Positions 32,404 to 41,460 of a stretch of 64,000 nucleotides of DNA are shown here, piece by piece. The DNA comes from Acidithiobacillus ferridurans. Its GTDB lineage: Bacteria > Pseudomonadota > Gammaproteobacteria > Acidithiobacillales > Acidithiobacillaceae. Under the pieces are notes generated by a model. The model ran no database searches, had not been told where the DNA came from, and saw only the letters and a list, made by a program, of their open reading frames with translations. Within the stretch, counting starts at the first letter, position 1. The number at the start of each line of letters is the position of its first letter. Location: contig NZ_AP018795.1 of assembly GCF_003966655.1 (NCBI RefSeq), positions 1,082,001 to 1,146,000 on the forward strand, in the 5' to 3' direction. The translations under genes and the position numbers were made by a program.

Positions 32404-33096
32404 ATGCCTGTCATGGAAGGAGCGCTCAAGACCAGCCATCGGGCCATCCGCAGTTTCGTGCTGCGCCAGGGCCGCATCACCGCTGCCCAGACCCGGGCAG
32501 TTGCGGAATATTTGCCGGCCCGACAGATAGATGCCCATGCCGAGTGGCGGGATCCCTGGGATAACCAAAGACCGCTCTTGCTGGAAATAGGCTTTGGCAA
32601 CGGTGAGCACCTGGCCGCCATTGCCGCGCAACGGCCGACCTGGGGCTGCATCGGCATCGAGGTGCATACACCCGGCGTGGGGTCCCTGCTGCTGCAACTG
32701 GTGGAGGCCGGAACCGATAACGTCCGGATCGTCCACGACGATGCCGTCACATGGCTGAAGGCGCTGCCGGACGCTCTTCTGCGCTGCATCATCATTCAGT
32801 TTCCTGATCCATGGCCTAAAAAACGGCAACAAAAACGGCGCCTTATCCAGCCGGATTTTGCTGCAGTGTTGTGTCGCCTGCTGCAGCCCGGAGGCGAACT
32901 GCAACTGGCCACGGACTGGGCGGACTATGCTGGGCAGATGCTCACCGTGCTCAACGCCACCCCAGGCCTGCAAAATGCGTCTCCCGACAATGGCTATGTC
33001 TTCCGCCCCGACAACCGCATTCTGACCCGATTTGAGCGGCGCGGGCAGCGACTGGGGCATACAGTTTATGACCTCTGCTATCGGCGCATCCCGTGA
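32404..33096 (+). CDS. trmB: tRNA (guanine-N7-)-methyltransferase
   Basis: Methylates G46 of tRNAs. The 230 residues contain [13 protein letters not shown], the SAM motif [22 protein letters not shown] and the family signature [23 protein letters not shown] at 32404 or 32413 could be the start. The stop overlaps the GTG start of the FNR-like regulator. Confidence 0.96.
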
Positions 33097-33794
33097 CTGC
33101 CAAGCGCTCCGACTGTGTGCATTGCCTCATGCGCGGACGAAGCATTTTTGCCGGGTTGAGCAGGGACGAAGTCTGCGAACTCGGTATGGACGTCCAGGAT
33201 ATCCACGTCCCGACGGGAACGTCGATCTATCACGAGGGCGGCCCTGCGCAATATGCCTATACGCTTCGTCAGGGCGGCATCAAGCTGGTCAAGAGTCTGC
33301 CCAATGGTCACGCGCAAATCGTTCGCCTGCTCAACCACGGCGACCTCCTGGGTTTTGAAGGATTGCGTAGCGAGCGGCATCGTCATAGTGCCATTACCTT
33401 GACCGGCACCGATCTCTGCCGCCTGGAACTGAGGGCACTGGATGCGCTTTCCCAGCGTCTCCCAGCGGTGCGTGAAGCCATTTTCGCGCGCTGGCAGCAG
33501 GCACTGCAGGAAGCTGAAGACCGCATTGTCGAACTGGGTGCCAAAAAGGCCGATGCTCGGCTGGCCACATTCCTCTGCCAATGGGTCAGCGCCTACCCGC
33601 AACAGCGTGCGGCGCCTTTCCCCCTCACCCGTCAGGACCTGGGGGAGTTTCTCGGCCTTTCCACCGAGCACGTCAGCCGCATCATGGCGGACCTGAAACG
33701 CCATGGGCTGCTCCACGAACACAAGGGGCAAATCGAAATTCCTGATCCCCAAAACCTACTCCTGTACGCGAGCAGCGACGGCACCCGCGCCTGA
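33093..33794 (+). CDS. Crp/Fnr-family transcription regulator (FNR-type DNA reading head)
   Basis: The 233 residues have a cyclic-nucleotide-binding-like beta-roll (about 20-140), a dimer helix (about 125-150) and a winged helix with LTRQDLGEFLGLSTEHVSRI. E192, S195 and R196 match the FNR recognition pattern ExxSR, predicting TTGA(C/T)-N4-(G/A)TCAA sites; such a site lies 33 bases downstream. The N-terminus has only C8 and C11 (DCVHC), plus C28 and C109, not the regular four-cysteine FNR cluster spacing, so the sensed signal is open. Starts with GTG overlapping trmB. Confidence 0.9.
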   Translation: MTAKRSDCVHCLMRGRSIFAGLSRDEVCELGMDVQDIHVPTGTSIYHEGGPAQYAYTLRQGGIKLVKSLPNGHAQIVRLLNHGDLLGFEGLRSERHRHSAITLTGTDLCRLELRALDALSQRLPAVREAIFARWQQALQEAEDRIVELGAKKADARLATFLCQWVSAYPQQRAAPFPLTRQDLGEFLGLSTEHVSRIMADLKRHGLLHEHKGQIEIPDPQNLLLYASSDGTRA

Positions 33795-33827: not shown

Positions 33828-33841
33828 TTGACAATTGTCAA
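33828..33841 (+). promoter_or_regulatory. FNR-type palindromic operator upstream of persulfide dioxygenase gene
   Basis: TTGACAATTGTCAA is a perfect 14-bp palindrome; a further half-site TGTCAA lies at 33820-33825. A -10-like TATGGT sits at 33864-33869, so a start site near 33876 would place the palindrome centre at about -41.5, the class II FNR activation position. The regulator gene is immediately upstream. Confidence 0.7.
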
Positions 33842-33934
33842 TGCAGACACTCTTTCTACGCCTTATGGTGAGAGTATGGGCGTCTCAGAACACAGGATGA
33901 TGCTCCGACACCATTGCCGACAAGGGGTGATAGC

Positions 33935-34624
33935 ATGTTTTTCAGACAGCTTCTTGAAACCGAAACCAGCACCTATACCTACATCCTGGGGGACCCGACC
34001 TGGCACGAGGCCGTGGTTATCGACCCGGTTCTGGAAACCATCGATGAGATACTGCGCATACTTGATCGGGAATCCATGCGACTAGCATACGTGCTCGATA
34101 CCCATGTCCACGCCGACCACGTTACCGGCGCCAGCGCACTGCGTGCGCACACCGGTGCGCAGGTCGTGATCAGCCGCCGAGCTGCCGCGCCCTGTGCAGA
34201 CGTACCGGTGGATGATAACGATTTTATCGTGCTGGGTGATGACGTCATACGGGTCATTAGCACGCCCGGCCACACTCCGGGATGCGCTAGTTACCGTTGG
34301 CGCGACCGGGTCTTCACGGGCGACGCACTATTGATCGGGGGCTGTGGCCGCACGGATTTTCAGGGTGGCGATGCTGGGGCGCTCTATGACAGCATCACCG
34401 GGAAGATCTTCACACTGCGCGACGAGACCCTGGTCTATCCTGGCCACGACTATGCCGGTCGCCACGTCAGTTGCGTCGGCGAGGAAAAGCGTATGAACCG
34501 TCGCCTGGCGGGTAAAAGCCGGGAGGAGTTCATCGCCATCATGGCGGAACTCCACTTGTCAAAACCGAAGAAAATTCATGTTGCCGTGCCCGCCAACCAG
34601 CGCTGTGGAGCGCTCAATATATGA
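33935..34624 (+). CDS. Persulfide dioxygenase-like metallo-beta-lactamase fold protein (ETHE1 family)
   Basis: The 229 residues show LDTHVHADHVTGA (HxHxDH iron site), STPGHTPGCASY, FTGDALLIGGCGRTDFQGG and YPGHDYAG, all characteristic of ETHE1/sulfur dioxygenases, which oxidise glutathione persulfide to sulfite. ATG at 33935 follows an AAGGGG site. It leads a cluster with an unknown protein and an SQR-like flavoprotein, so sulfide or elemental sulfur oxidation or detoxification is the likely setting. Confidence 0.92.
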   Translation: MFFRQLLETETSTYTYILGDPTWHEAVVIDPVLETIDEILRILDRESMRLAYVLDTHVHADHVTGASALRAHTGAQVVISRRAAAPCADVPVDDNDFIVLGDDVIRVISTPGHTPGCASYRWRDRVFTGDALLIGGCGRTDFQGGDAGALYDSITGKIFTLRDETLVYPGHDYAGRHVSCVGEEKRMNRRLAGKSREEFIAIMAELHLSKPKKIHVAVPANQRCGALNI

Positions 34625-34637
34625 GGAGTACTTAAAG

Positions 34638-35255
34638 ATGAGCAAAAAAAATACCGTGCACGGGGTGCTGGCAGGCATGAGACGTGGTGGCGGCGGCGGA
34701 GGTCGCGGACGCGGGCAGGGCGGCATTCGTTTCGGGAATGAGCCGGGCATGCGGCCTGCCGGCATGAGCCTGGCCGACGAGGAAGCTATGGAACAGCGGA
34801 TGCTGGTGAGCACCGGGAACACGGACAAAAGGGCACGCCATCAGCACGATCAGGAGGTCTTCCATACCCTGCTTCGCCATCACGACCAGATTCAGCGTGA
34901 ATTGACCCGGCTTCCCGATGGCATACGTTCGCTGACGACTTCCGCCAACCCGGAGATCGTCAGCCTGCTGCACGACCATGTTCCGGCCATGCACCACCGG
35001 TTGGAAGAAAACTTTGGATTGCGCTTCTGGGATCCAGCATTTCCGGAAATTTTCGCGCAGCGCGAAAAAGTACAAATGGAAGTAACCCTGGTACCCAATG
35101 GAGTTCTTGTGGAAGAGACCAGCGAGGATCCCAACGTGGTGACCCTCATTCAAGCCCACGGCATCGTCGTCAGCCTCTTCGTGCAACGCGGCTTTGCCCA
35201 GGCCCAGGAGGTCAGCCCCTTGCCAGACAACTATCAGCGTGTACTGGGTGGCTGA
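34638..35255 (+). CDS. Conserved protein of unknown function with Gly/Arg-rich N-terminus
   Basis: The 205 residues have a disordered head with an RGG-like stretch (MRRGGGGGGRGRGQGG, about 14-29), then a compact domain (about 65-195) rich in histidines: H68, H70, H76, H81, H82, H112, H114, H119, H120 and H174. Recurrent patterns are FHTLLRHHDQI, LHDHVPAMHHRL, RFWDPAFPEIF and VVTLIQAHGIVVSLFVQRG. I recall similar uncharacterised bacterial proteins but no named function. A GAGGAG site lies 9 bases upstream. Position between dioxygenase and SQR suggests a sulfur role; the histidines could bind metal or haem (inference). Confidence 0.8.
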   Translation: MSKKNTVHGVLAGMRRGGGGGGRGRGQGGIRFGNEPGMRPAGMSLADEEAMEQRMLVSTGNTDKRARHQHDQEVFHTLLRHHDQIQRELTRLPDGIRSLTTSANPEIVSLLHDHVPAMHHRLEENFGLRFWDPAFPEIFAQREKVQMEVTLVPNGVLVEETSEDPNVVTLIQAHGIVVSLFVQRGFAQAQEVSPLPDNYQRVLGG

Positions 35256-35379: not shown

Positions 35380-36507
35380 ATGACCCAAGTGACCATTATC
35401 GGCGCAGGCTTTGGTGGCCTGACGGCCGTCCGCCACCTGCGCCGCCGGATGCCCGACGCGGAAATCACCGTCATCGCACCCAGGGCGGAGTTCGTTTACT
35501 ACCCCAGCCTGATCTGGATTCCCACCGGGCTGCGGCAAGGCGAGAATCTGCGGATTCCCTTGGACCGTTTCTTTCAGCGCCAACGGGTGGAGTTTCATCA
35601 GGGTCGCGTCACTGGCCTGCGCGACGGTGGCCGTACCGTCATCACCGACCACGGTGAAGTGCGGAACGACGCGCTCATCATTGCCAGCGGCGGTCGCGGT
35701 ATCCGTAAGCTACCGGGCATCGAGCACAGTTTCGCTATCTGCGACGGCATCGATGCCGCCGAAAACATCCGAGACCGCTTGGCGCTGATGGACAAAGGTA
35801 CCATTGCCTTCGGTTTCGCCGGCAACCCCCTGGAGCCAACCGCCGTACGCGGTGGTCCGGTCTTTGAACTGCTCTTTGGAATCGACACTTACCTTCGTCA
35901 GATCGATAAGCGCGGACAAATCGAATTGGTATTTTTCAATCCGATGACCGAACCGGGTAACCGGCTGGGTCCGAAGGCGGTGGAAGGACTGCTCGCGGAA
36001 ATGCAGCGGCGCGATATTCGCACCCATCTTGGTCATAAAATCAGTGGGTTCTCGGTAAACAAAGTGATGACCGAAGGCGGCGACATTGCCGCGGACCTGA
36101 TCCTGTTCATGCCCGGCATGACCGGCCCGGACTGGGCAGCCAACAGCGGTTTGCCCCTCTCTGCCGGTGGCTTTTTTCAGTCCGACCTGCACTGCACGGT
36201 TCCCGACCATCCGGGCGTCTTTGTCATTGGTGACGGGGGGTCCTACGCGGGCAGCCCGGACTGGCTACCCAAGCAGGGCCACATGGCGGACCTGCAGGCC
36301 GGGACCGCCGTGCATAACCTGCTCCTGCATCTGCAAGGGAAGGCGGCAGACAACACCTTCCGCAGCGAGTTGATCTGCATTGTCGACACCCTGGACAGCG
36401 GCATCATGGTCTATCGCAGCCCCAATCATGCCAGCATCCTGCCAAATTCGCTCTGGCATGCGGCCAAGGTCGCCTTTGAGTGGCGTTATCTGCTGCATTA
36501 CCGCTGA
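35380..36507 (+). CDS. Sulfide:quinone oxidoreductase-like FAD flavoprotein
   Basis: The 375 residues have the N-terminal FAD loop GAGFGGLTAVRHL (8-20), FVYYPSLIWIPTG, and the C-terminal FAD segment VFVIGDGGSY...LPKQGHMADLQAG. Cysteines are C121, C272 and C333. C121 and C333 (LICIVDTLDSG) fit two of the three catalytic SQR cysteines, but the middle one is replaced in the NPLEPTAVRGGPVFELLF segment. This makes it an SQR relative (type uncertain), or a flavocytochrome-c-like oxidoreductase. Downstream of the persulfide dioxygenase. Confidence 0.87.
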   Translation: MTQVTIIGAGFGGLTAVRHLRRRMPDAEITVIAPRAEFVYYPSLIWIPTGLRQGENLRIPLDRFFQRQRVEFHQGRVTGLRDGGRTVITDHGEVRNDALIIASGGRGIRKLPGIEHSFAICDGIDAAENIRDRLALMDKGTIAFGFAGNPLEPTAVRGGPVFELLFGIDTYLRQIDKRGQIELVFFNPMTEPGNRLGPKAVEGLLAEMQRRDIRTHLGHKISGFSVNKVMTEGGDIAADLILFMPGMTGPDWAANSGLPLSAGGFFQSDLHCTVPDHPGVFVIGDGGSYAGSPDWLPKQGHMADLQAGTAVHNLLLHLQGKAADNTFRSELICIVDTLDSGIMVYRSPNHASILPNSLWHAAKVAFEWRYLLHYR

Positions 36508-36545: not shown

Positions 36546-37717
36546 TCAGCGCTCCTGTCCGGGCGCACTATAATGCCGCCCTTTCCACGCTCCGCCCCGG
36601 CCGCCGTAATGACGGCGGGCGGAATCCAGCGTCATGAGTGTATAGAACAGTGCCGCAATGGGCAGACTGAACGCCCGGAGGGGGTTCAGCGCGTAAAGCC
36701 GCAAAGTGGGCACATAGGCCGTCAGCATCAGCAGACAGGCGAGCAGCGTGGGCATCGCCAGCCAGACATTTTCGGTCCAAAGTCCATACAGCAGCCCTCC
36801 TACCGGCCCGGCATAGAGAAAAGTCATCACCAACGTTGCTCCGAGCAGCCGCCAGGGGCTGAACCGCAGTTGCACGTAGGCGGAGCGAGCTACCATCCGC
36901 CATATTTCGCCAAGTTGGCGGTAATCCCGCAGACTATGGCTCTCCGTCCCCAAACCCAGCCAGATCGCGCCATGGGGCTTCAGCAATGCTGCCAGCGTGC
37001 AGTCATCGATGCGTGCGGCACGCATGGCGGCGAACCCGCCGACCTTTTCGAGTGCCTCCCGACGCAGCAGCATACACCCCCCGCCGCACCGGCCAGAGTA
37101 CGGTGTGGGTCGTTGACCCAGGGAAAGGGATACAGCATCTGGAAGAAGAAGATGAAGGGCGGAATCAGAAGACGCTCCCAAAAACCGCGGCAGGAGAGCA
37201 TCACCATCAGCGAGACCAGTGACAAATCCCGATCCTCTATCCGGGTGACGAGGCGCCGCAAGACATCCGGCCCATGCACGATATCTCCGTCGGTGAACCA
37301 GAGAAGCGGCACCGGGCCGGCCGCGGTCACCCCCTGGTCCATGGCCCAGACCTTACCCGCCCAGTTTTCCGGCAGCGGCGCGCCAGTCAGCACCTCCAGA
37401 CGGGAGGAGGCATCCATCTGCCGCGCCGCCTCCCGTGCGCACTTTGCGGTGCCGTCCGTACTCTGGTCATCCACCACGATGACCCGCAAGACGCCGGGGT
37501 AATCCTGTCTCAGCAGGGCCGTTACGCAAGCACCAATACCCTCTGCTTCATTACGCGCAGGCACTACGGCGGTGACTTCTGGCCAGCTTCGCCGTGGGTT
37601 GCTTTCGCGGGGTGGAAGACGCTGATCTGCCCGCCAGAAAGCGCCCCGCCCGAGGAACAGCACCAGCCAGGCCACCAGAACGGCCCATGCGGCCGGTAAC
37701 AGCCACACGTCGCTCAA
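36546..37717 (-). CDS. hpnB: Hopanoid-associated glycosyltransferase HpnB, interrupted by a 1-base frameshift
   Basis: Family 2 glycosyltransferase with N-terminal membrane anchor (WLLPAAWAVLVAWLVLFLGRG), the nucleotide-sugar domain (VTAVVPARNEAEGIG, VVDDQSTDGT, FTDGDIVHGPD) and C-terminal membrane spans. The frame breaks at a run of six C (plus strand 37077-37082). One extra base joins AGAAGG to CMLLRREALEKVGGF and gives about 390 residues, the family length. TTG at 37717 overlaps the pilU stop as TTGA; a GTG three codons later is also possible. Probably a sequencing error rather than a pseudogene. Confidence 0.85.
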
Positions 37718-38856
37718 GACTGAATACGCCACTGCCCTTCCGCAGAGGTGGCGGCCCCAGGATCGGCCATGCCCGAACGCATACACGCCTGTTTGATGGC
37801 GAGGCGCAGATCGTTCTGCGAATCGGCCGCGCGCAGGGCATCGTCATATTCCACCAGTCCATCCATAAACAACTGCAACAGGCTCTGATCAAACGTCTGC
37901 ATACCGACGTCGTTCGTTCGCGACATGGCGTCCTTCAGCAGACTCACTTCACCCTTGTAGATCAGATCGGCAATGGCCGGGGTATTGATCAGCACCTCCA
38001 TGGCAGCGATTCGTCCGCTCTGCCCCTTGACCGGCAACAGGCGCTGTGAGACCACGGCACGCAAATTGAGTGAAAGATCCATGAGCAACTGTTTTTTACG
38101 ATCTTCCGGGAAAAAATTGATGATCCGTTCAATGGCCTGATTGGCATTGTTCGCGTGGAGGGTGGACATACACAGGTGCCCGGTTTCGGCATAAGCGATG
38201 GCATGATCCATGGTGTCCCGGCTGCGCACTTCGCCGATCAGGATGACATCCGGCGCTTCCCGCAACGCATTCTCCAGCGCCCGCTCATAATTCAGGGTAT
38301 CGATGCCCACTTCGCGCTGATTGACGATGGACTTCGCATTCCGGTGCAGAAATTCGATTGGATCCTCAATGGTGAGGATATGACCCGCCGCATTCTGGTT
38401 GCGATACTGGACCATCGACGCCAGGGAGGTGCTTTTCCCGGAACCGGTAGAACCGACGAAGAGCACCAGCCCCCGCGACGTCATGGCCAGATCTTTCAGT
38501 ATCGGCGGCAGCCTGAGCTGCTCCAGGCTGGGAATCTGGGTCTTGATGGCGCGCAGGACAAAGCTCAGTTCACCACGCTGGAAAAACCCGTTGACCCGGA
38601 AACGCCCCACCTCGGGCACGGAAATGGCCATGTTGATTTCTTTCTCGTGCTGGAACTCCTGTAAGCGCTCCATCCCCAGAATTTCCTTGGCCAGATTCAG
38701 CACCTGACCCGGTTTCAGCATTTCTGTCCCCAGCGGAACCGTCCGCCCGTCGACTTTCATGACCGGTGGCGAGCCCACGGTGAGGTACAGGTCCGAGCCG
38801 TTTTTTTCCACCATCAGGACCAGCAAGTCATCCAGTACAGACTGAAGTTTAGACAT
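37714..38856 (-). CDS. pilU: Type IV pilus retraction ATPase PilU
   Basis: Hexameric AAA-type ATPase supporting pilus retraction. The 380 residues contain Walker A FVGSTGSGKSTSL, the Asp box TIEDPIEFLH, Walker B DVILIGEVRS and the His box TGHLCMSTLHANN. The PilU-like features are the NFFPEDRKKQLLMDLSLN segment and the extended C-terminus with LRLAIKQ. GAGGAGG precedes the ATG. An insertion sequence lies between it and pilT. Confidence 0.93.
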   Translation of the reverse strand: MSKLQSVLDDLLVLMVEKNGSDLYLTVGSPPVMKVDGRTVPLGTEMLKPGQVLNLAKEILGMERLQEFQHEKEINMAISVPEVGRFRVNGFFQRGELSFVLRAIKTQIPSLEQLRLPPILKDLAMTSRGLVLFVGSTGSGKSTSLASMVQYRNQNAAGHILTIEDPIEFLHRNAKSIVNQREVGIDTLNYERALENALREAPDVILIGEVRSRDTMDHAIAYAETGHLCMSTLHANNANQAIERIINFFPEDRKKQLLMDLSLNLRAVVSQRLLPVKGQSGRIAAMEVLINTPAIADLIYKGEVSLLKDAMSRTNDVGMQTFDQSLLQLFMDGLVEYDDALRAADSQNDLRLAIKQACMRSGMADPGAATSAEGQWRIQS

Positions 38857-38919: not shown

Positions 38920-40242
38920 TCAGGCGACCTTTTTGCGGGGTGGGTCATCGGTATCGGCCCAAAAGGCGGGGGCGGGGCACTGGAATTTCCCGGACTTCGG
39001 GTCGTAGCCCTTCCAGAATGGAACCCGCAGAAATTGCAGATGAAGCCATTGGGCCATGAGTCCTGCGGTGACAGGAGTAGCGATACGCCAGGGCGCTACT
39101 GCAGTCATGGGGAAATCTTCGGATAGGGTTTCGGCGAGGAGTTGCACCATGGACCAAGCGATGCAGCGGATTTGCATCCAGCGTTCCAAGACGGTGCGTT
39201 TTTGCTGCCAGAGGTTATGGATGCCCCACCAGCGTTTGAGATTGTGGAAGATCGGTTCGATCTGCCAGCGGTTGCTGTAGAGGACGACGATTTCGCTGGC
39301 GGTGAGATCCGTCTCGGAAGCGAGATAGAGGCGGGTGGGAGACCACCGATGATGCTTTTCATCGTAGATCGCACTCCATACGGCACGGACCGGATGGCCG
39401 TTCAGGAATCGTGCATTGGCGATGATGGATTGAAGACGGACCTTCTGCCGTTTCCCATAGAGATCCAGAGAGACGATCTCGGTGGGCAGCGCAGCCATGT
39501 CTTCCACGGTGTACTTGTTTCCATATATCCGAGGACGCCCGCGTTGGGATGTCCTCGGCGGTGGGTCGCGGAGCAGTACAGTATCTTTGCGCACCTGGCC
39601 GATGAACTGGCCTGCCGGCTGCAGGCCGTGCTGACGCAACAGGGGCAAGAGCAGGCGCCGCCGCATGAACCAAGCATCGGTGAGCAACCGGACGGGTACG
39701 GGGATGTGGGGTATAAAGGCGCGCAGCAATGCTCCGGCGATTTTCAGCTTGTGGGTGTTGCCGGTACTGGGCACCAGGCGCAAGCGGATGGGAAAGGAAA
39801 TGGCTTTGCCGGAACGGGTACGCAGGGTCAACGCCAGACCCACCCAATTCTGGGCGAGGACATAACTGGGGCGGTTGTGCTTATGACTGTGGTCGAAGCG
39901 GATGGCCGCGCCTGGGGCCTTGGTAGAGTGCCGCAGGACCATCGTGTCGTCGACGACTAACTCGACGATCAGGGGCTTGGGCAAGGACTGCAGGAGCCAG
40001 CGTACCTGGGTTATGGCCAACGCCTGTGTACGCAAGGACGCACGCTCCAGGAGTTTGTAATAGGTGGTCCAGTGGCAGCGGAGGGAGATGCTGCTGAGGG
40101 CGCGGGTGACCCAGCCTTCGGGCGAGATCAGGCAACCGCAAAGCAGCTCCACAAAACTGCGCCGCGAGCGGGGCGGCACGACCGTCAGAAAGTAGGAAAT
40201 CCACTCCGAGAGGCGGAGGGCAACGAGACGATGAAAGGGCAT
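38920..40242 (-). CDS. IS4-like DDE transposase
   Basis: The 440 residues have the DDE layout: first aspartates in LVVDDTMVLRHS (about 97), a second in LLTDAWFMRR (about 188), and the YREK-like box YSNRWQIEPIFHNLKRWW (about 325-342) with the catalytic glutamate. The N-terminus is a helical DNA-binding region. It looks intact, so the element may be mobile. Minus strand, same direction as pilT and pilU. Confidence 0.92.
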   Translation of the reverse strand: MPFHRLVALRLSEWISYFLTVVPPRSRRSFVELLCGCLISPEGWVTRALSSISLRCHWTTYYKLLERASLRTQALAITQVRWLLQSLPKPLIVELVVDDTMVLRHSTKAPGAAIRFDHSHKHNRPSYVLAQNWVGLALTLRTRSGKAISFPIRLRLVPSTGNTHKLKIAGALLRAFIPHIPVPVRLLTDAWFMRRRLLLPLLRQHGLQPAGQFIGQVRKDTVLLRDPPPRTSQRGRPRIYGNKYTVEDMAALPTEIVSLDLYGKRQKVRLQSIIANARFLNGHPVRAVWSAIYDEKHHRWSPTRLYLASETDLTASEIVVLYSNRWQIEPIFHNLKRWWGIHNLWQQKRTVLERWMQIRCIAWSMVQLLAETLSEDFPMTAVAPWRIATPVTAGLMAQWLHLQFLRVPFWKGYDPKSGKFQCPAPAFWADTDDPPRKKVA

Positions 40243-40411: not shown

Positions 40412-41460
40412 TCAGGCCACGTTCATGAAGCTGTCTTTGTTCTGTACCCGGCGCAGCGCATCTTCGCGAGTCACCTTGTGGGCACGCACCAGGTCGGCAA
40501 GACATTGGTCCAGGGTTTGCATGCCCTGATTTTGCCCGGTCTGGATCACCGAGTACATCTGCGCAACCTTGTTCTCACGAATCAGGTTGCGGATAGCCGG
40601 GGTGGCGATCATGATTTCGTGGGCGGCGACCCTTCCCTTGCCGTCGGCCGTTTTGAGCAAAGTCTGGGAAATGACCGCGCGCAGGGATTCGGACAGCATG
40701 GCGCGGACCATATCCTTTTCCCCCCGGGAAAGGAATCGACAATACGGTCGATGGTTTTTGGTGCGGAACTGGTATGCAGCGTCGCAAACACGATATGGCC
40801 GGTCTCTGCCGCGGTAAGCGCCAGGCGCATGGTCTCCAGATCACGTAACTCGCCCACCAGGATGATATCGGGATCTTCACGTAAAGCCGAGCGCAGGGCG
40901 TTTTCAAAGGAGTGGGTGCTGGCACCCACCTCGCGCTGGTTGATCAGGCACTTCTTGGGGGTGTGCAGAAATTCGATAGGATCTTCAATGGTAATGATGT
41001 GGTCGGCGCGATTCGCATTGATATGATCTACCATCGCCGCCAGCGTCGTTGACTTACCCGATCCGGTCGGCCCCGTGACCAATACCAGTCCGCGCGGCAC
41101 GTTGATGATCTCCTTGAAAGAACTGGGCGCATGGAGGTCTTCCAGTGTCAGCACACTCGCAGGAATCGTCCGGAACGCCGCAGCCGGTCCGCGGTCCTGG
41201 TTGAAGGCGTTAACCCGGAAACGCGCCACACCCGGCAGTTCATAGGCAAAGTCGATTTCCAGGTTCTCCTCATACCCCTTCCGCTGGAAATCGTTCATGA
41301 TGTCGTAAATCATGCTGTGTACGGTTTTGCTGTCCTGCGCCTCCACATTCAGCGGACGGATGTCGCCGTTGATCCGCAGCATCGGCGCCAGACCTGCCGA
41401 GATATGGGTGTCCGATGCGTTGTTTTTTACCGCGAAGGCGAGCAGTTCTGAAATATCCAT
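40412..41460 (-). CDS. pilT: Type IV pilus twitching motility ATPase PilT, interrupted by a 1-base frameshift
   Basis: Pilus retraction ATPase. Residues 1-246 read MDISELLAFAVKNNASDTHI, with Walker A VTGPTGSGKSTTL, TIEDPIEFLHTPKK, DIILVGELRDLET and TGHIVFATLHTSSA. The frame breaks after DSFPGG at a run of six C (plus strand 40720-40725). One extra base gives GGEKDMVRAMLSESLRAV and runs to the normal end near 40412, about 349 residues in total. Probably an assembly error. Divergent from yggS. Confidence 0.92.

Follow-up and report, generated by a model that had tools for sequence, protein, structure and literature searches.

In Acidithiobacillus, a small gene lies between the genes of a persulfide dioxygenase (PDO) and an SQR-like enzyme, in a cluster with the order fnr-pdo-ORF-sqr. 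What does this gene encode? The other members of such clusters have each been studied. In A. ferrooxidans, AFE_0270 has been called FNR (PMC6659574), and AFE_0269 and AFE_0267 are sdo and sqr, respectively (PMC7984328). When AFE_0267 was overexpressed, sulfur oxidation improved solely in the absence of oxygen; its product is described there as an SQR that is seemingly active only under anaerobic conditions (PMC12016491). Because AFE_0269 is sdo and AFE_0267 is sqr, the gene considered here presumably corresponds, by gene order, to AFE_0268 of A. ferrooxidans ATCC 23270. In A. caldus, the sqr-like A5904_0792 is downstream of sdo2, A5904_0790 (PMC5584763), and A5904_0791 would be the remaining slot for a counterpart. 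Unlike their published neighbours in the same cluster, AFE_0268 and A5904_0791 are not named in the main text of any of the ten papers found to carry one of six neighbouring locus tags.

We analysed the locus in a 64,000-nucleotide stretch of the A. ferridurans genome (NZ_AP018795.1), hereafter the window. The ORF is real and lies exactly where a preliminary description had located it (Table 1). It starts 13 bp past the stop of pdo, and the first base of a likely ribosome-binding site is the last base of that stop. Its placement between a persulfide dioxygenase and an SQR-like enzyme was also confirmed, with an MBL-fold enzyme on the 5' side and a Pyr_redox_2-type FAD enzyme on the 3' side. 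Specific NCBIfam models scored below cut-off for both; they are called PDO and SQR here from gene order and from identity with the studied loci. Beyond sqr, a glycosyltransferase-like gene (36564-37786, minus strand) looks frameshifted, with two frames in the window and one 408-aa frame in genome G006 (locus L053). A PilT-like ATPase gene (40415-41460, minus strand) is broken over two frames near 40714-40723; its L053 counterpart has 349 aa. A transposase-like ORF (38920-40242, minus strand), IS4-type by eye, lies between two PilT/PilU-like genes.

Table 1 Features of the fnr-pdo-ORF-sqr cluster, in window coordinates
Feature	Position	Strand	Basis
FNR-type regulator, 94% identical to that of G006; FNR-AF (AFE_0270) from gene order	33093..33794	+	
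Palindromic FNR box TTGACAATTGTCAA in the fnr-pdo gap, matching the consensus exactly	33828..33841	+	
Persulfide dioxygenase, MBL fold, named by gene order; start possibly 33914	33929..34624	+	
AGGAG, likely ribosome-binding site, 9 nt 5' of ATG	34624..34628	+	sequence
CDS under study, 205 aa, leaderless branch of an uncurated His/Met family	34638..35255	+	
Head rich in Gly and Arg (residues 1-60) with a computed pI of 11.3; modelled as mostly disordered, details unconserved	34638..34817	+	
First repeat of the core (residues 80-125)	34875..35012	+	hhalign, AF2 models
His114-x3-Met118, invariant in the true relatives examined	34977..34991	+	
Second repeat of the core (residues 140-190)	35055..35207	+	hhalign, AF2 models
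His174, invariant in the true relatives examined; repeat-2 equivalent of His114	35157..35159	+	
SQR-like FAD oxidoreductase, Pyr_redox_2-type, 99% identity to the G006 copy; by order AFE_0267	35380..36507	+	

The protein contains 11 His (positions 8, 68, 70, 76, 81, 82, 112, 114, 119, 120 and 174), 8 Met and no Cys, and the three histidine motifs first singled out in it are all present. The glycine/arginine-rich head that had caught attention exists as well. Its reading as an RGG box that may bind RNA did not hold: repeated RGG motifs would be expected, a single one is found, the head differs among close species, and residues 1-44 have pLDDT below 50 in the AF2 model of the full-length protein. 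That reading was rejected.

Searches of Pfam, NCBIfam and PDB sequences with the protein and with a 16-row alignment of the family (A1) gave weak chance hits only and no curated family. Copper-chaperone profiles from Pfam and NCBIfam matched neither the window protein nor any of the 16 members of A1. PADLOC returned a single chance hit (E 0.0068). No phage record matched the window protein, and no viral contig was found with three exported relatives (see below) as queries. The idea of an undescribed component is thus upheld in the sense that the family is absent from the libraries searched. The AF2 model of the core, built from eight relatives (mean pLDDT 87.6, pTM 0.81), shows a helix, a beta hairpin and a helix, twice, with no barrel in its secondary structure. 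Foldseek found no PDB fold at E≤0.001, and the best VIA-align match in the PDB has Z 5.3 and an rmsd of 3.2 over 74 aligned residues; this absence of a confident match is no evidence for a new fold. The core is a tandem duplication. hhalign aligned its two units over 46 columns with a probability of 98 and a score of 57.2, compared with a mean of 9.0 and a maximum of 18.5 in 200 column shuffles.

None of the 75 true rows of the family alignment departs from His114, Met118 and His174; 49 of these rows are non-redundant (less than 85% mutual identity). The two histidines sit at one equivalent position of the two repeats. The branches of the family (see below) were compared over 50 rows of less than 85% identity, 12 leaderless and 38 others. 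His114 is kept in 12/12 and 38/38, and Met118 and His174 are each kept in 12/12 and 37/38; all departures come from one false row, L135. This row, from genome G921 and counted among the 38, matched with E 5e-5 over 54 positions within a 693-residue asparagine synthase-like frame. It was rejected as a relative and dropped before the hhalign duplication, leader-hydropathy and tree analyses. All 12 leaderless rows share His68, His70, His82 and His112; among the other 38, His82 is kept in 14 and replaced by Phe in 20, and His112 is kept in 3. The histidines are therefore conserved. Together with the conserved methionine, they could form the metal or haem site proposed in the preliminary description.

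The leader separates two branches. Hydropathy was scored over the last 70 residues preceding the core. In 26 leaderless rows, duplicates included, the top 14-residue value lies between -2.0 and 1.0 and no Met follows Gly185. In the other rows, the top value is mostly 1.4 to 2.9 and the tail holds at least two Met. Among these exported relatives, L009, L087, L132 and L133 score lower (-0.1 to 1.0) because long linkers push their leader outside the scored 70 residues. In the tree, a single branch with 100/100 support unites the leaderless rows. This branch is predicted to be cytoplasmic, and it is the missing leader peptide that assigns the window protein to that compartment. Leaderless copies occur in 19 of the 29 genomes of the Acidithiobacillaceae, and four close relatives lie outside the family.

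The exported branch keeps a different company. There are 18 long matches of the exported type in the Acidithiobacillaceae, and 15 loci were fetched (G008:C56, G016 near 103 kb and G021 near 2.00 Mb were left out). The exported relative directly follows a CusA-type gene in 10 of these 15, on the same strand and at a spacing of -31 to 22 bp from longest-ORF starts. In nine of the ten the preceding CusC-CusB-CusA-like genes are complete, and in L080 CusA is truncated. L075 has a CusA remnant; L074, L076, L082 and L083 have no CusA. At L070, the sole locus tested with profiles, CusA (TIGR00914) and the CusB/adaptor family (TIGR01730) scored above cut-off, and the CusB and TolC models below it. cusCBA and cusCBA-like clusters are listed for A. 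ferrivorans (PMC7463520). A metal-sensing repressor of the PF02583 family follows the exported relative in L069, L071 and L072 (two profile-tested, L072 assigned by clustering); its best NCBIfam model is the copper-sensing RicR, below cut-off. G000 and G006 have no exported paralogue. In L078 (6974-7723), a DsrE-like gene and a TusA gene are located immediately downstream of the exported relative and its CusCBA-type genes.

Plasmids give a similar picture. Twelve plasmid records matched and 11 relatives were opened (NZ_LT703506 and NZ_OY970457 were left out). Nine of the 11, all except L009 and L013, have genes annotated for metal resistance or as metalloregulators within 6 kb, compared with one of six stretches taken elsewhere on the same plasmids. 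Several plasmids carry related cassettes and the loci are related too, so that locus and plasmid counts are not independent. Some of these contexts point to arsenic, mercury or cadmium instead of copper. In L012 and L144, on Acidithiobacillus and Acidiphilium plasmids, the exported relative is found beside merA, an MBL-fold gene, ArsR and an RND permease; the MBL-fold gene of L012 is 31% identical to the window PDO.

Could the conserved residues serve something other than a metal? Arg87, Gly95, Phe139, Asp164 and Gly185 are strongly conserved too and there is no confident fold match, as might be expected of a non-metal enzyme or a structural protein in which these residues would be catalytic or structural. 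The exported branch, with its Met- and His-rich linkers and its pump and metal-resistance neighbours, argues otherwise, and we consider such a function very unlikely.

More widely, relatives were found in 6 of 398 sampled genomes of the phylum, the window's own included, in 18 of 149 in the family of G341 and in 5 of 300 in the order of G569; in the phylum of G568, 2 of 199 matched, one of them falsely. The G341 family was placed with Rhodobacterales through one shared plasmid (L010/L115). Among its 22 loci, whose neighbours were judged by eye (17 of them gene by gene), pdo and sqr come after an exported copy in L084 and L118, where a Crp-type gene is also close by, arsenic-type genes lie near L115 and L116, and the rest have no consistent neighbour. 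Within the Acidithiobacillaceae, exported copies lie beside a PDO-like gene in L080 and L082. In L082 (5958-7600), the exported relative and the PDO-like frame are followed by a truncated leaderless copy of 78 aa. The survey of neighbourhoods therefore cuts both ways for the sulfur context initially proposed: most relatives, taken over the whole family of proteins, lie outside it, and a secondary link to sulfide stands in these four loci.

Within the cytoplasmic branch, the steadiest partner is FNR. It is directly upstream or one gene away in all 19 loci of the Acidithiobacillaceae, window included (L001-L003 duplicate the contigs of L052, L019 and L054 and were counted once; the L019 FNR, cut by the contig end, was counted). 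The sulfur genes, the context proposed at first, are less constant: PDO is adjacent in 11 of the 19, SQR in 13 (the L058 SQR, in two pieces, was scored as present) and both in 10, and the order pdo-gene-sqr is retained in those 10. An FNR orthologue (at least 56% identity) is found in exactly the 19 of 29 genomes that carry the leaderless gene (hypergeometric p 5e-8, kinship and linkage ignored). PDO at 62% identity or above is missing from six genomes carrying the gene, and SQR (at least 61%, near full length) is present in five genomes without it. Outside the family, the FNR neighbour is kept in Sulfuriferula (L005 and L006); none was seen in the stretches examined of L004 (Sulfoacidibacillus) and L007 (Chromatiales).

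Two genomes without the gene, G012 (L160) and G014 (L158), retain the flanking neighbours on both sides and sqr at the same site. Nothing of fnr is left beyond residues 1-36, and neither pdo nor the gene is present. The same deletion is seen on one contig (L159) of G011, whose assembly is 5% contaminated and carries an intact locus as well. Thus, a single block comprising fnr, pdo and the gene was lost. This means that the co-occurrence with FNR is partly due to linkage, and that sqr is independent of the gene.

These observations bear on two alternatives. The position 13 bp after pdo and before sqr, the conserved order in 10 of 19 loci and the exported copies near pdo, sqr or PDO-like genes would suit a dedicated component of sulfide oxidation, for example a carrier or an iron-loading factor for PDO, or a partner of SQR. 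With no Cys in 205 residues, a thiol-based persulfide carrier of the TusA, DsrE or rhodanese type is ruled out. Since PDO and SQR are not adjacent in 8 and 6 of the 19 loci, respectively, and SQR persists both in the five genomes lacking the gene and after the block loss in G012 and G014, the other versions of this role are also distinctly unlikely. The second alternative is a protein partner or modulator of FNR, which might protect or read its [4Fe-4S] cluster. The shared distribution over 19 of 29 genomes, with fnr always adjoining or one gene off, speaks for it. The one-block loss in G012 and G014 needs no functional tie, L004 and L007 do without an FNR neighbour, and G010 has a second FNR(53%)-PDO pair with no copy of the gene on its contig. 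We find a role as FNR partner improbable.

The tie to FNR may be regulatory. The palindrome TTGACAATTGTCAA between fnr and pdo is the sole exact match to TTGAYNNNNRTCAA within the window; with one mismatch allowed, the window has three sites, which is not above chance (mean 4.4). A box with at most one mismatch lies between fnr and the next gene, pdo or the counterpart of the window gene, in 20 of 21 distinct FNR loci, the exception being L059. Twelve of these 20 boxes are exact, and they are all the exact sites in these loci. Boxes with one mismatch also occur elsewhere (18 of the 27 listed, duplicates included). In G012 and G014, no box at up to one mismatch remains in the 5.5 to 6.0 kb fetched. 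Across the genome there are 13 exact palindromes, versus 3 for a reversed control; 8 of the 13 lie inside crude ORFs. Three others precede genes of a molybdopterin oxidoreductase, a prismane-type protein and a globin, which are kinds of genes known to be under FNR control. No sigma-70-type promoter was found on the plus strand, and sites from the promoter and terminator scan were no commoner than in shuffles. In the A. ferrooxidans study, no site of the FNR type is reported ahead of fnr (PMC6659574); the box described here lies downstream of fnr. The conservation of the box between fnr and the next gene suggests that the gene is under FNR control. The box before sdo may already be predicted by Osorio et al. 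(2009), whom PMC6659574 cites for FNR sites.

A putatively FNR-dependent protein with conserved His and Met, which are classical haem ligands, might also bind haem. His114, Met118 and His174 would then ligate haem b, and the protein would sense or scavenge O2, NO or H2S as part of the FNR response. Cytochrome bd genes are indeed found near the cytoplasmic branch: cydA and cydB adjoin fnr in L056 (where they were tested with profiles), L060, L063 and L066, and cydA is near in L068. The exported relatives, which accompany metal-efflux and metal-resistance genes, fit this less well, and their Met-rich linkers would be better suited to Cu(I) or Ag(I). That the protein binds haem or responds to a gas is in our opinion rather unlikely.

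We tentatively favour an FNR-controlled cytoplasmic protein that binds a soft metal, probably copper, at low oxygen; this is quite possible while falling short of an even chance. Binding of a soft metal is suggested by the invariant His and Met residues, together with the pumps and metal-resistance genes around the exported branch. The protein is small and free of Cys and would be soluble, with a core of two alpha-beta-beta-alpha units. A soft metal ion, probably Cu(I), would be held by His114, Met118 and His174 with the help of the additional histidines of this branch. Expression would be driven by the FNR-box promoter behind fnr, in many species jointly with that of the PDO and SQR genes. 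When oxygen is low, copper would be present as Cu(I) and sulfide is being oxidized; the protein may then buffer the metal or pass it on, and iron and iron-sulfur proteins would thereby be protected. The exported relatives would be the periplasmic counterpart beside CusCBA-type pumps. A broader scenario can be drawn, in which a family with a His/Met site arose by duplication, a periplasmic branch came to serve Cus-type efflux and a cytoplasmic branch was captured by FNR, so that FNR and the protein would form a module coupling oxygen, copper and sulfide stress and guarding the FNR iron-sulfur cluster. We hold this scenario to be unlikely; the block deletion counts against it, as it does against the FNR partner.

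A. ferrooxidans and its relatives are used for copper bioleaching. Through the conserved FNR box, the timing of the protein's synthesis can be tested directly, and through the invariant His and Met residues its ligand. Because Cus-type and other metal-resistance genes also adjoin members of the family, knowing its function would help to understand metal resistance in general.

Two kinds of known proteins invite comparison. The sulfur carriers TusA, DsrE and rhodanese are likewise small and encoded near sulfur-oxidation genes; unlike them, the window protein has neither a Cys nor a family match. CusF, the periplasmic Cu/Ag chaperone of CusCFBA systems, resembles the exported relatives, which are also small and Met-rich and often adjoin CusCBA-type genes. 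CusF is a small beta-barrel, whereas the present family has a duplicated alpha/beta unit in its predicted fold, and the window protein further differs from CusF in being leaderless and linked to FNR.
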